A stretch of 57,801 nt of DNA from a virus. The stretch is from IMG/VR virus record IMGVR_UViG_3300028146_000012, positions 1 through 57,801 of that record; one strand, written 5' to 3'. Position 1 is the first letter of the stretch, and every line of letters begins with the position of its first letter. Of this stretch, positions 2,893 through 28,669 are shown piece after piece. The notes beneath the pieces are model-generated. The model worked only from the letters and a program-made list of their open reading frames with translations. It ran no database searches and was not told where the DNA came from. The position numbers and the translations under genes were made by a program.

Positions 2893-3307
2893 ACTAACAA
2901 TACTCACCGCAATACTAATAGCAGTATTGTTCTTTGCGCTAGGACAGTTCACGGCGCGCTCTAAAACGACTACAGCGGACAAAAAAGTCGATGAAGTAAA
3001 AAACGTTAGTACGAAACAAAATGAAACCATCACTGAAGTCAAAAAGCCAGATGGTACCGTAACAACAGTCACTACTATAAATACAACGCAAGACACTATC
3101 GACAAAGTAGACACTCGCGTCTTAATGAAGATCGCGCCAGTACAGCCTAAATACAACGTGTCACTACTCGCAGTTACGACTATCCACAACCCATTTGCAG
3201 CGCCGTCTTATGGGCTAAGTATATCAAAAGAGTTCATCGGACTGAGAGTCAGTACGTTCGGACTAACTAATGGTACGTTTGGCGTCGGAATTGGTGTTGA
3301 TTTTTAA
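2882..3307 (+). CDS. Membrane-anchored protein with external threonine-rich segment
   Basis: 141 residues from the ATG at 2882, chosen because a GGAG site lies six bases upstream; an ATG at 2870 has none. Residues 6-24 form one hydrophobic segment (signal anchor). A polar, charged, Thr- and Val-rich stretch (about 28-85) follows, then a Gly-rich beta-like C terminus ending in GVGIGVDF. The order suggests an N-in inner-membrane protein exposed to the periplasm. It could be a spanin-like or superinfection-exclusion protein, but no specific motif shows this. Confidence 0.72.
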   Translation: MPSRLTILTAILIAVLFFALGQFTARSKTTTADKKVDEVKNVSTKQNETITEVKKPDGTVTTVTTINTTQDTIDKVDTRVLMKIAPVQPKYNVSLLAVTTIHNPFAAPSYGLSISKEFIGLRVSTFGLTNGTFGVGIGVDF

Positions 3308-24583: not shown

Positions 24584-24676
24584 ATGGCAGCAGTATATGC
24601 TAATAGTAGCAATCAAATCGCTGCGCTAAAAGAATTGTATACCGACGATAAAGAGTACATGAAGGATCTTGTCTAT
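24584..24676 (+). CDS. Major capsid protein, exon 1 (residues 1-31)
   Basis: First exon of the major capsid protein. The ATG has AAAGGA ten bases upstream. The frame reads to YMKDLVY and would hit a stop three codons later (TAG at 24686) in the intron. The protein family continues at this point with a K-x-NPFLAL sequence, which is found at 25395. The exon's last six bases GTCTAT pair with GTAGAC in the intron, with the U.G pair typical of a group I 5' splice site, so I place the boundary after 24676. Joined exons give about 432 residues. Confidence 0.85.
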
Positions 24677-25394
24677 AAAAATTTGTAGACGTTAAACTGA
24701 GCAAAATCGGTGGAGCCTAAAGCCTTGACAGCTAAGGTAATACCGAGGTAAGATAGTAGGTAAAGAACACTATCCACCGTAACGCGTAGAATGAGAAACT
24801 AATGAACTGCATAGTATGCGAGAAAAAACTGAGAAAAGATAATACTATAGGCACTTGTCGTGCTCATAGAGGTTTATCGCCAGTACGTCGCGCATATGAG
24901 AAATCTTGGCAACAAGATCACTCCGAACAGTATGTAGAAGCTAAAAAGCAATGGGGTAAAAGGAATCCTAAGTATTTTGTAGATTATCGAAATAAAGACA
25001 TTTCTAAGAAAATAGCGCATAATTTGCGCGTTAGAATTAGACATGCCATTAATCGCGGATCTGCAATTAAAAACTTAGGTTGTACTGTACCTGAGCTTTT
25101 GGCGCATTTAGAAGCTAAGTTTGCTAAAGGAATGACTTGGCAAAACTATGGTAAATGGCACGTTGACCACATACTGCCATTATCTAGTTTTGATTTGACA
25201 AATCCTGAGCAGCTTAAGCGGGCTTGCCATTATAGCAATTTACAGCCGCTATGGGGCGCGGATAATATCCGTAAACATGCGAAATTAGACTATCATTCCA
25301 AGAGTGCTTAGCACACAAATGTGTGATGATGTACGCTGAGCTTACAGGAAACTGTAAGAAGTAGAGGATAAAAAGCCTTTACGATAACAGACTG
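24677..25394 (+). mobile_element. Group I intron 1 in the capsid gene
   Basis: 718 bases. P1: exon GTCTAT (24671-24676) with GTAGAC (24685-24690), U.G at the splice site. P10: TTT (24682-24684) with the exon 2 start AAA. The terminal G is 25394. Core-like blocks flank the HNH ORF: a GCGTAGA stretch before it and GGATAAAAAGCCT plus ACGATAACAGA after it, both also present in intron 2. Removal joins LVY to KENPFLAL in frame, as expected of the capsid protein. The class is inferred; a full fold was not computed. Confidence 0.85.
24802..25311 (+). CDS. HNH homing endonuclease in intron 1
   Basis: 169 residues. An N-terminal CIVCEKK pair and CRAH suggest a zinc site. The catalytic part is WHVDHILPLSSFD with a following NLQPLWGADNIRK, the H-N-H pattern of group I intron endonucleases. 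It lies in a peripheral loop of the intron and would cut intronless capsid genes to spread the intron. The start ATG has only a weak ribosome site, as is common for intron ORFs that are kept at low expression. It is of a different HNH subfamily from the one in intron 2. Confidence 0.88.
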   Translation: MNCIVCEKKLRKDNTIGTCRAHRGLSPVRRAYEKSWQQDHSEQYVEAKKQWGKRNPKYFVDYRNKDISKKIAHNLRVRIRHAINRGSAIKNLGCTVPELLAHLEAKFAKGMTWQNYGKWHVDHILPLSSFDLTNPEQLKRACHYSNLQPLWGADNIRKHAKLDYHSKSA

Positions 25395-25454
25395 AAAGAA
25401 AATCCCTTCCTAGCTCTTGTTCCCAAAGACGAAAGCCCTGATGGCTTCGCGGGT
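25395..25454 (+). CDS. Major capsid protein, exon 2a (20 codons)
   Basis: Reads KENPFLALVPKDE then SPDGFAG, the conserved N-terminal region of this capsid family. It follows the terminal G of intron 1 at 25394. The next codon after GGT (25452-25454) is an in-frame TAA. The family sequence resumes 33 bases later in the same frame as KYIPVPLEYG. The exon end CGCGGGT forms a seven-pair P1-type helix with downstream GCCCGCG. Confidence 0.82.
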
Positions 25455-25487
25455 TAAAATACTTGCCCGCGTCTAGAGGCGCAATTG
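25455..25487 (+). other. 33-base core-less group I intron-like element
   Basis: The element begins with an in-frame TAA and interrupts the conserved capsid sequence between FAG and KYIPV. P1: exon CGCGGGT (25448-25454) with GCCCGCG (25465-25471), ending in the U.G pair that marks group I 5' splice sites. P10: ATACTT (25459-25464) with AAGTAT at the next exon start (25488-25493). The last base is G (25487). Its 3' part TCTAGAGGC resembles the 3' arm of the terminal hairpin of intron 2 (TCTAGACTC). Everything needed to define the splice sites is present; the catalytic core (P3-P9) is not. A real internal deletion, trans-acting splicing, ribosome bypass and an assembly loss all remain open. Confidence 0.75.
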
Positions 25488-25517
25488 AAGTATATTCCAG
25501 TGCCTCTGGAATACGGT
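25488..25517 (+). CDS. Major capsid protein, exon 2b (10 codons)
   Basis: Encodes KYIPVPLEYG, in the same frame as exon 2a but separated by the 33-base element with a stop codon. It ends at GGT; AATACGGT (25510-25517) pairs over eight bases with GCCGTATT (25525-25532), the P1 of intron 2. At 30 bases it is one of the shortest exons one would find in a phage gene. Confidence 0.8.
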
Positions 25518-26182
25518 GAAGGTTGCCGTATTTAAATCGACCAAAAACGGTGAATGCTGAAATGCAAATACCGTGCTAAGCTGAAAAACTAAAGAATTTC
25601 AGCCAGTGTAGAGCGTAGACCTTGACAACTGCCAAAAACAAGGGCAGAATAAAATAGGTCCAAGAGTGGTTGACAATCAAAAGGATTGAAAATGTACGCC
25701 GAACTTGAGCAAAAAGTTTGTAAGCAGTGCGGAAAACCTAAGCCCTTAAGTGAGTTTAGATTTCGCACAAGGAAAGGACGTAGCAAAGGCACATATGAAA
25801 GTTATTGTAAGAAATGTGAATACGATAACAATAAAATATGGGCCGCTGCTAATAAAGAGAAACGCAAAGATTCAGAATTTGAGAGAAATCTTAAGCGCAA
25901 GTTTAATATGACTCGAAAAGACTATGACGCGATTCTTTTAGCGCAAGGAAATAAATGTGCTATATGTCCGAAGCCTAGATCACTAAGCGGTAAAGCATTG
26001 GCAGTAGATCATTGTCATACTACGTTAGCGATACGAGGACTCCTTTGTAATGAATGTAATACAGCTATTGGTCTTTTCACTGAGAGCATAGAAATATTAC
26101 AATCTGCAATTGCTTATCTCACTAAGTTCAAGAAGTTAGGATAAAAAGCCTAACGATAACAGAGTCTATCTAGACTCACTTG
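25518..26182 (+). mobile_element. Group I intron 2 in the capsid gene
   Basis: 665 bases. P1: AATACGGT with GCCGTATT (eight pairs, U.G at the splice site). P10: GGTT (25521-25524) with exon 3 start AACC (26183-26186). The terminal G is 26182, preceded by a hairpin GAGTCT/AGACTC (26162-26177). Core-like blocks GCGTAGA and GGATAAAAAGCCT plus ACGATAACAGA match intron 1. Removal joins LEYG to NPMGRS in frame. The HNH gene's stop lies inside the 3' core, as in T4 introns. Confidence 0.88.
25692..26144 (+). CDS. Endonuclease VII-like HNH homing endonuclease in intron 2
   Basis: 150 residues from the ATG at 25692 (AAGGA nine bases upstream). N-terminal zinc ribbon (CKQCGK and CKKC), then a basic linker, then CAICPKP, the catalytic VDHCHTT and IRGLLCNEC. 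The catalytic half is of the same type as the free-standing genes at 37255 and 7949, so these probably share an origin. It would promote homing of intron 2. Confidence 0.88.
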   Translation: MYAELEQKVCKQCGKPKPLSEFRFRTRKGRSKGTYESYCKKCEYDNNKIWAAANKEKRKDSEFERNLKRKFNMTRKDYDAILLAQGNKCAICPKPRSLSGKALAVDHCHTTLAIRGLLCNECNTAIGLFTESIEILQSAIAYLTKFKKLG

Positions 26183-27298
26183 AACCCCATGGGTCGTTCG
26201 CATACATTCTCGAATGCGCAAAACCAACAGACAGCGACTAGTCTCGTATCGTACTTCGTGTACGTAATCCAAGACTACCAGCTTGTCACTATCACTAACC
26301 TCCTAATGGAACAGACTAAGACAAATGCAGGCGCATTCGTTGATGCTGCAAAACTCCAAATGGATGGTGGTTTTAGAAACATTACGAACAACATCGCATT
26401 TGAATTGTTCAACGATGGTACGGCAACTCGTGGTGCCTCGACTTCGGCTTCTACGCAGTCTGGCACAACCGTAGGCGGCACAGTATTGCCTCTTACGAAT
26501 GCACAGAACATCGTACAGTTCGAAGTAGGCCAGCTCCTAGTCGCTTCTAGCACTCCCGGCGGCGCTCCGTCTACAGATACAGTCCTAGTGACTGCAGTAG
26601 ACCGCGCTAACGGTATCGTAACAGGCACAGCTTCGGCTGGTAGCTTGAGCGGTAACTGGGCTATCGGCACAGGCAGTGCATACTTGACCGTATCTGGAGA
26701 CCTTCCGGCAGCCGGCGCGTCGAATACAGGCAGTTTCTTGGCTCTTTCGGGCCTTGCAGCTTGGATTCCGACGACTACGCCGAGCACATCGGATAGTTTC
26801 TGGGGTGTAAATCGTAGTGCAGACCCGACTCGTCTTGCAGGCTTGCGTTATAACGCGACTAGCCAGACGATTGAGGAAGGTATTACGAATGCACTGGCAT
26901 TCACTAACCGTGAAGGCGGCAAACCAGACCTTTGCATCATGGACTTTGCTTCATATGCAGCGCTGGTTAACGCTCTTGGCGCGAAAGTCCAGTACGTCCA
27001 GGTAAACCACGATGAAGTAGAAGTAGCTTTCGAAGGTATTACGTTTCAATCTGCGTATGGCAGAGTTACAATCCTTGCCGACAGATCTTGTCCACCCACT
27101 ACAGCATACCTATTAACCATGGCGACTTGGAAGTTGCGCAGCCTTGGAAAGGTTCCGCATATACTCACCTACGGTATGGAAGGTTTGGAAGGCTTGAGGG
27201 TCGGCAACGCTGACGCGCTCGAGATCAGGATCGGCTACTATGGTAACCTCATTTGTTCCGCTCCCGGATTTAATTGTGTCGTGCAGCTTTCAAGCTAG
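26183..27298 (+). CDS. Major capsid protein, exon 3
   Basis: 371 codons. Starts NPMGRSHTFSNAQ, the conserved continuation of the family, and has no start codon of its own with a ribosome site (the frame could begin at a TTG in the intron). The body carries a P-domain-like start, an insertion of beta-rich sequence (about residues 60-140 of the exon) and a C-terminal A-domain-like part (LLTMATWKLRSLGK). The HK97-like fold is inferred from position and style. A terminator follows at 27328. Confidence 0.85.
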   Translation, partial: NPMGRSHTFSNAQNQQTATSLVSYFVYVIQDYQLVTITNLLMEQTKTNAGAFVDAAKLQMDGGFRNITNNIAFELFNDGTATRGASTSASTQSGTTVGGTVLPLTNAQNIVQFEVGQLLVASSTPGGAPSTDTVLVTAVDRANGIVTGTASAGSLSGNWAIGTGSAYLTVSGDLPAAGASNTGSFLALSGLAAWIPTTTPSTSDSFWGVNRSADPTRLAGLRYNATSQTIEEGITNALAFTNREGGKPDLCIMDFASYAALVNALGAKVQYVQVNHDEVEVAFEGITFQSAYGRVTILADRSCPPTTAYLLTMATWKLRSLGKVPHILTYGMEGLEGLRVGNADALEIRIGYYGNLICSAPGFNCVVQLSS

Positions 27299-27406: not shown

Positions 27407-28669
27407 ATGAGAACTACATGGACTCTCCAAAAAATAACAGAAGCTGCTAGTAAATGTAAGAATAGGCGTGAACTTCAGACTAAGTTCATAGGAGCATATA
27501 AAGCTGCTGCTAGACTGGACATATTACATGAACTTTATCCTGACTATGCACAAATTCAATGGACGGATGAAATGCTTAAAGCAGAAGCATCTAAGTATAA
27601 AAGTAGAGGTGCCTTTGCAGCTAACTCATCAAGTGCTTATGTAATAGCCAGGAAACGCGGTTTACTTGACATTATATGTCCACCCAAAATAAGTAGAACA
27701 CACACTAGGGAAAGCCTTACAAAATTAGGAAAACAATATAAGACTAGAACAGAATTCGCCAGAAAAGACCCAGGTGCATATAGTTCAGCACAGCGCGCTG
27801 GTCTGTTGAATGAAGTATGTCCGCCCAACATAGGCGGTACATCACAAGGTGAAGCGGAACTATTAGAATTCCTCAGATCCTTAATATCTGATTTCATAAA
27901 AAAGAAATTTAGCAATGATTATGAGTTGGATTGCTATTCAGATAGCCTTAAGCTAGGTATTGAATATAATGGGCTATATTGGCACAGCGATGCCAATCCT
28001 AAAATGTTTCCTTCTTACCACGTTAAGAAAACAAAGTACTTCGAACAGCAGGGCATACGAGTTATTCATATATGGGAACACGAATGGACAGCACGCAAAA
28101 CCCAAGTAAAAAACTATCTTCAATCTGCCTGTAGAGTAAATACAGTTCGCTTGGGCGCTAGGAAATGTGAATTTAAAGAAATACCAGCACAGCAAGCCAG
28201 AGAATTCATACAAAATGCCCACATACAAGGCAAGCCTAATCATGTAGCCTTGGCAATCGGCTGTTTCTATAAAGAGCAACTAATAGCAGCTGCCAGTTTC
28301 GGGAGACATCACAGAGACAGCACAGCAAACTACGTTCTTAATAGATTCTGCTGTTTGCCGGGGTATACAGTATCTGGCTGTCTTGCAAAGATGTCTAAGC
28401 TTGCTGCCAATAAACTAGGGCCTTTGATATCGTGGGCAGATTACTGCAAAAGTCAGGCTGGTGGTTATATAGCGGCTGGATGGATAAAAGTCAGGACTTT
28501 AAAACCAGATTATTTCTATACAGACAAACGCGGCGGCGTGATAAGTAAGCAAGCCAGAAAGAAATCTCATGTTGATACGCCTCAAAGTATGACAGAATCA
28601 GAGCACGCTAAGCTAGATGGCTTGCATAGAATCTGGGATTGTGGCAAAATAGTACTAATATTTAAATAA
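27407..28669 (+). CDS. VSR-like (EDxHD-type) homing endonuclease
   Basis: 420 residues. N-terminal half: repeated helical DNA-binding units (SKCKNRRELQTKF, SKYKSRGAFAANS and GKQYKTRTEFARK, each followed by a SAY.IA/SAQ helix), like NUMOD or recognition helices. The nuclease core is around 170-230: LGIEYNGLYWHSD, then KYFEQQGIRVIHIWEHEW, which is the very-short-patch-repair fold used by I-Bth0305I-type homing enzymes. C-terminal part about 180 residues, unassigned. It stands directly after the capsid terminator, so it probably entered as a mobile gene near the intron-rich capsid gene. Confidence 0.82.
   Translation: MRTTWTLQKITEAASKCKNRRELQTKFIGAYKAAARLDILHELYPDYAQIQWTDEMLKAEASKYKSRGAFAANSSSAYVIARKRGLLDIICPPKISRTHTRESLTKLGKQYKTRTEFARKDPGAYSSAQRAGLLNEVCPPNIGGTSQGEAELLEFLRSLISDFIKKKFSNDYELDCYSDSLKLGIEYNGLYWHSDANPKMFPSYHVKKTKYFEQQGIRVIHIWEHEWTARKTQVKNYLQSACRVNTVRLGARKCEFKEIPAQQAREFIQNAHIQGKPNHVALAIGCFYKEQLIAAASFGRHHRDSTANYVLNRFCCLPGYTVSGCLAKMSKLAANKLGPLISWADYCKSQAGGYIAAGWIKVRTLKPDYFYTDKRGGVISKQARKKSHVDTPQSMTESEHAKLDGLHRIWDCGKIVLIFK

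Follow-up and report, generated by a model that had tools for sequence, protein, structure and literature searches.

Core-less mini-introns and a candidate shared group I core in phage major capsid genes

In the usual account of the origin of the spliceosome, a group II self-splicing RNA was divided into a separate catalyst and dependent introns that lack a core. Short, stop-bearing insertions with hairpins also occur in coding sequence in the T4 gene 60 bypass and the yeast mitochondrial byp elements, and the group III introns of Euglena plastids are short, have apparently lost their catalytic core and seem to rely on outside help. For group I RNA, a separate catalyst with dependent introns has so far been realised only in the laboratory. 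In engineered trans-excision-splicing ribozymes and spliceozymes, a group I core recognises a foreign segment through P1 and P10 and cuts it out (PMC4094466).

The window analysed here is the whole stretch of 57,801 nucleotides of the IMG/VR virus record IMGVR_UViG_3300028146_000012, and all parts of its capsid gene described below lie on the plus strand. When a profile of the capsid N-terminus was aligned with the DNA in spliced mode, without splice-site preference, breaks in the major capsid gene fell at 24676/25395, 25454/25488 and 25517/26183, which recovered to the base the first and last of these borders, as given in the original prediction. All three insertions were bordered by a U before the 5' break and a G at their own end, letters that the alignment had not requested. 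The gene is interrupted at codons 31, 51 and 61, in agreement with the earlier claim of three insertions within 31 codons. The joined 5' exons agreed with the uninterrupted relative L001 at 85 of 87 amino acids, and L001 presents three empty sites matching the three insertions of the window.

The spliced alignment, together with the identity to L001, thus delimits exon 1 (24584..24676, 31 codons), and the alignment also defines exon 2a (25395..25454, 20 codons), the 3' end of which, GCGGGT, is the P1 strand of the following short insertion. Between the second and third insertions lies a micro-exon of 10 codons (25488..25517, KYIPVPLEYG), and exon 3 (26183..27298) contributes 371 codons and the stop. 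The encoded product is an SU10-like major capsid protein, as judged from matches of exon 3 to SU10_MCP and phrog_9953, with capsid_maj_Podo just under the cut-off, and it found no match among 50,697 phage records. A mechanical ORF call returned only the last 372 codons, starting from the TTG at 26180 within intron 2, just as had been anticipated for gene callers. Just 3' of the capsid gene lies a free-standing 420-aa ORF (27407-28669), which is homing-endonuclease-like (phrog_3339, 4e-75) and combines a Mom-like C-terminal part with a MTES_1575-type nuclease match.

The two long insertions, intron 1 (24677..25394) and intron 2 (25518..26182), have the anatomy of IA-like group I introns without a P2. 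In both, P1 is perfect and places U.G at the 5' splice site, and the last intron base is G; P1 is GTCTAT/GTAGAC in intron 1 (24671-24676 with 24685-24690) and ATACGGT/GCCGTAT in intron 2, where the micro-exon strand 25511-25517 pairs with P1' at 25525-25531. P10 of intron 2 comprises 4 bp (AACC/GGTT; P10' 25521-25524 with 26183-26186), and that of intron 1 is a weak helix of 3 bp (AAA/TTT). The borders put forward earlier from P1, P10 and the reading frame agree with those of the spliced alignment.

The Rfam group I model RF00028, suggested earlier as a check on both introns, gave no match to either of them, even at E = 5 or 10, and we therefore built our own alignment of 26 related cores, which came from capsid genes on IMG/VR contigs. 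Compensatory changes were detected in P3, P4, P5, P6, P7 (which forms a pseudoknot with P3), P7.1 and P8. In this alignment, 92.1% of the cells were paired, versus 70.0% after shuffling, and two-sided changes numbered 238 versus 72, values as high being reached in none of 500 shuffles. Furthermore, the 26-core model (class A model) detected intron 1, which lies outside the training set and has its core split by its ORF, with E = 4e-11 and 8e-7. Judged by this covariation, introns 1 and 2 carry a genuine group I core, which bears out the original prediction of two complete introns, and the core of intron 2 extends from P3 to P7' (25535..25704; P3 5' strand, 25537-25542). We read the Rfam miss as limited sensitivity of RF00028, a match to which is a detection aid and not a defining feature of group I. 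The classical R and S sequences are present in some relatives (L041, L052), and a second core class, mostly ORF-less, was also found (L027, L074, L140). ORF-less introns of ~200 nt with cores of this second class occur late in the capsid gene, near codons 327-407, of L026, L127, L132 and L140, where they are not accompanied by short insertions. During the search for relatives, a 16-base core tag gave many matches that look like chance, and was replaced by a longer pattern; a C. difficile match (L446) was rejected as an IStron, as it is an intron in a prophage tape-measure gene.

Each of the two introns encodes an endonuclease-like protein. The ORF of intron 1 (24802..25311), situated in P7.1/P7.2, matched only weak HNH/endonuclease VII models (phrog_1035, 1e-11; weak Pfam HNH) and has relatives in L034 and L026, whereas that of intron 2 (25686..26144), situated in P9, is of the endonuclease VII (HNH) type (PF02945 Endonuclease_7, 1.2e-23; phrog_2633). 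The two ORFs matched different models and showed no significant similarity to each other, consistent with the earlier description of unrelated HNH genes. Homing-endonuclease-like ORFs of the endonuclease VII/HNH type, together with uninterrupted alleles among relatives, are features of homing introns.

The third insertion (25455..25487), hereafter called the mini, consists of only 33 nt and begins with an in-frame TAA directly after the last exon codon. It contains no catalytic core, just a P10' (25459-25464, ATACTT), a P1' (25465-25470, GCCCGC) and a tail (25472-25482, TCTAGAGGCGC), before the terminal G at 25487. The guide ATACTT.GCCCGC, that is P10' plus P1', is complementary to the ligated exons (p = 0.001), the proposed junctions being GCGGGT joined to AAGTAT for the mini and AATACGGT joined to AACCCC for intron 2. 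The tail pairs with a docking strand in the micro-exon (25500-25510; p about 0.001), immediately before the P1 strand of intron 2. In the minimum-energy fold obtained at this site in the window, the P1 of the mini (7 bp), the docking helix (11 bp) and the P1 of the core intron (9 bp) follow each other with no unpaired base between them (z = -4.64; 0 of 200 shuffles). The mini thus has the borders and the guide, complementary to the ligated exons, that characterise a group I intron, but we do not class it as one on its own because it has no catalytic core. The original prediction had treated introns 1 and 2 as self-contained and the mini as an aside; the introns are indeed complete, but the aside has to be revised, since the tail of the mini docks flush at the P1 of intron 2, which has no P2. 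Taken together, these findings point to a core-less intron that is tied to intron 2 by the docking helix. No mini was found for intron 1.

Minis recur among related phages. A survey of 148 distinct related capsid genes, which are related by descent so that the counts are not independent, comprised 102 uninterrupted genes, 12 with cores only, 34 with both cores and minis, and none with minis alone. The minis are mostly 30-59 nt in length and occupy about nine codon sites. Like the mini of the window, they follow a U and end in a G, although the search did not demand these letters. All 27 minis of the first tally break the frame or hold an in-frame stop (26 with a stop). The guide is located near the 5' border; its 3' half pairs with the 5' exon to form P1, with U.G at the border, and its 5' half pairs with the 3' exon to form P10. 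Against dinucleotide shuffles, the complementarity of the guide was significant at p<=0.012 in 23 of the 27 minis, and the other four need a bulged P1. In the sample searched with a motif detector, convincing minis were confined to capsid genes of this phage group, and the best scores outside capsid genes were about 50, equal to the shuffled maximum. In L509 (about 3200-3290), a stop-bearing insert of just 6 nt, TAACTG, stands between GGT and AAATAT and is followed by a 14-nt micro-exon; its guide TATTTGCCAGC is found, in this single case, inside the following core intron, adjoining P3. If it is removed as proposed below, this insert is possibly among the shortest introns known.

We then compared the tails of the minis with the exons of the same genes. 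The tail pairs with exon sequence ahead of a core intron downstream of the mini. In most cases, 6-8 nt separate the paired segment from the 5' splice site of that intron, a spacing equal to the length of the P1 of that intron, and this flush docking is kept over distances from 20 nt to more than 1 kb and across no fewer than 13 combinations of mini site and core site. When the tails of 33 minis were compared with shuffled tails, docking was significant at p<0.05 in 27 and at p<0.01 in 22. The own core was fitted better than any foreign core by 20 of the 33, and some tails fitted foreign docking exons equally well as their own. The two minis of L074 do not share a core: each has one of the gene's two cores as its partner, and one of them reaches it past the other mini. 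The mini of L066 skips a nearer core that possesses its own P2, to dock by 9 bp, flush, to a core more than 1 kb away, past another intron. In a second, more distant clade, L508 and L511 share the same mini guide but have different tails; each tail docks flush to its own core by 10 bp, and the two cores lie at different codons. The specificity of docking is not absolute, because the tail of L511 also scores well on the L508 exon. Furthermore, in the minis at codon 46, one pair of the docking helix was seen as AU, UA and GC, a compensatory change. At L031 4238-4275 and 4388-4992, the mini (codon 22) showed no good dock to the only core of the gene (codon 59); its tail would suit a core at codon 30, which is absent from the L031 gene.

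The docking helix stands in the position of P2, the hairpin that otherwise lies between P1 and P3. Within the first core class, P2 was absent from all 27 docked cores and present in 14 of the 16 undocked capsid cores (27:0 versus 2:14), as scored by eye from the sequences; automatic classification mixed up the hairpins of P1 with those of P2, and filtering by GNRA loops proved reliable only to a degree. Two cores depart from this pattern in having neither P2 nor a docked mini, namely that of L031 and that of intron 1 in the window. Cores that lack P2 and have no mini were also seen in other genes, so the rule holds in one direction only. In four cyanobacterial contigs (L445, L447, L450 and L457), cores of the same class, again lacking P2, occupy a single conserved site in a cyanobacterial gene, where no mini was found. 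The borders, the core and the P1 and P10 pairings can be read directly from the sequences and their comparison, and so can the docking helix, the preference of this helix for one core and the correlation with P2.

That the mini is excised, which core would catalyse this and in what order the steps would run, we infer as set out below. It is quite probable that the core of intron 2 removes both the mini and itself. The mini would contribute P1 and P10 together with one half, the 5' strand, of a substitute P2, and P3-P9 would come from intron 2 downstream. The guide of the mini would form P1 with the 5' exon, placing U.G at the splice site, and P10 with the first bases of the micro-exon, while the tail would pair with the exon flush against the P1 of intron 2, thus creating the helix that replaces P2. 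The core of intron 2 would then act on the P1 of the mini, with attack after GGU, and the terminal G of the mini would serve as the 3' splice site, so that GCGGGU is joined to AAGUAU. Afterwards, the same core would remove intron 2 through the P1 of intron 2 itself. A point against this scheme is that the 3' splice site of a normal group I intron follows the core, whereas in this scheme it would sit within the loop closed by the substitute P2. In more general terms, we regard it as rather likely that these genes harbour a natural group I spliceozyme, in which core-less, guide-only introns, down to the 6-nt intron of L509 with its guide inside the core intron, are excised by one nearby core that also excises itself.

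Other explanations of the minis were weighed against these observations. Simple readthrough of the stops fails, because 15 of the 27 minis are not a multiple of three. Translational bypass, in which the ribosome would stop, skip the hairpins and resume downstream, fits the in-frame stops in 26 of the 27 minis as well as the hairpins that flank the gap in the window; matching take-off and landing codons were found in none of the 27, however, and the U and G at the borders, the P1/P10 complementarity, the obligatory downstream core and the flush docking over long distances would all be left unexplained, which makes bypass very unlikely. Since many phages encode RNA ligases, a protein endonuclease might instead cut out the minis for a phage ligase to seal, the resemblance to group I guides being secondary; the U.G at the 5' border, the terminal G and P10 are nevertheless group I signatures, and the link to P2-less cores would have no explanation, so that we consider protein excision highly improbable.

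Excision could also proceed in trans, by the core of an intron that has already been freed or by whatever group I core the cell contains, with the docking helix only aiding the folding of its neighbour. Engineered group I ribozymes do excise short segments in trans (PMC4094466), and the mini of L031, with its poor dock to the sole core, would be accommodated, but each tail is fitted to one particular core of the same transcript and every gene with a mini has such a core; we thus take trans excision to be unlikely. Finally, the introns might be two ordinary group I introns beside a defective insertion, as would arise from a broken allele or an assembly error. The mini does place a stop codon in an essential gene, but the same architecture recurs in 34 distinct genes on many contigs, with intact, conserved micro-exons and compensatory changes, and this reading is barely credible; assembly error was rejected on account of the same recurrence.

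As for the origin of the shared-core arrangement, we tentatively suggest that an intron may first have been inserted at the site of the mini by its homing endonuclease, and that the core may later have shifted downstream, leaving behind a mini that would keep the endonuclease target interrupted. The distribution of the ORFs suggests, as a lead, that each endonuclease family belongs to one target site, which is interrupted by either a core or a mini. The endonuclease family of intron 2 is found in cores at codon 51 of L008, L096, L103, L116 and L510, and the window has its core at codon 61 and its mini at codon 51. Likewise, L007 and L010, where the mini is at 22, have a family similar to those of cores at codons 20-25. 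L034 shares the family of intron 1; its mini is at 30, and the core of intron 1 is at 31. L100 and L060 mirror the pattern at 46-48; L018, L031 and L509 do not fit it.

By their sequence features, introns 1 and 2 are of a known kind, and the novelty lies in the core-less, apparently core-dependent mini-introns; a search of the open-access literature returned neither a natural core-less group I intron nor a precedent for a natural spliceozyme. If the shared-core reading is true, group I introns have taken the step to a separate catalyst with dependent introns in nature too, and the system is small enough for tube tests with natural matched pairs; short 'errors' in phage genes that bring in a stop codon or shift the frame can then be introns overlooked by gene callers and Rfam. 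Like T4 gene 60 and the byp elements, the minis are stop-bearing hairpin insertions, but they have no matched take-off and landing codons, and show group I borders, guides and dependence on a core intron instead. With the Euglena group III introns they share the apparent loss of the core and the apparent reliance on outside help; those introns, however, belong to the group II lineage, reside in organelles and have no known helper, whereas the minis are of group I type, reside in phages and have a candidate helper core in the same transcript.

The phage group IA introns with HNH genes (for example the IA2 intron of the Pf-WMP3 DNA polymerase, PMC3428280; T4 td and nrdB) are like introns 1 and 2 in their core layout with P7.1/P7.2, and the U.G at the 5' site, the terminal G and an HNH-type ORF in a peripheral loop are likewise shared; P10 also belongs to this layout, with a candidate pairing of 4 bp in intron 2 and a weaker one of 3 bp in intron 1. 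In the stretches of T4 and Pf-WMP3 that were searched, the class A model (R1) gave no match to the introns. Each of these known introns removes nothing but itself, whereas intron 2 of the window has no P2 and appears coupled to a separate, core-less mini. Tandem group I introns with exon skipping (PMC10136302) similarly place two introns around a short exon in one transcript, but both are complete, while here one is core-less and has a P10 which suggests that the micro-exon is kept. The spliceozymes resemble the proposed removal of the mini in that a core excises a foreign segment recognised through P1 and P10 (PMC4094466); they are, however, engineered, carry the guide in the ribozyme and have no docking helix in place of P2, whereas in the phage genes the guide is mostly in the mini and, in L509, in the core intron.
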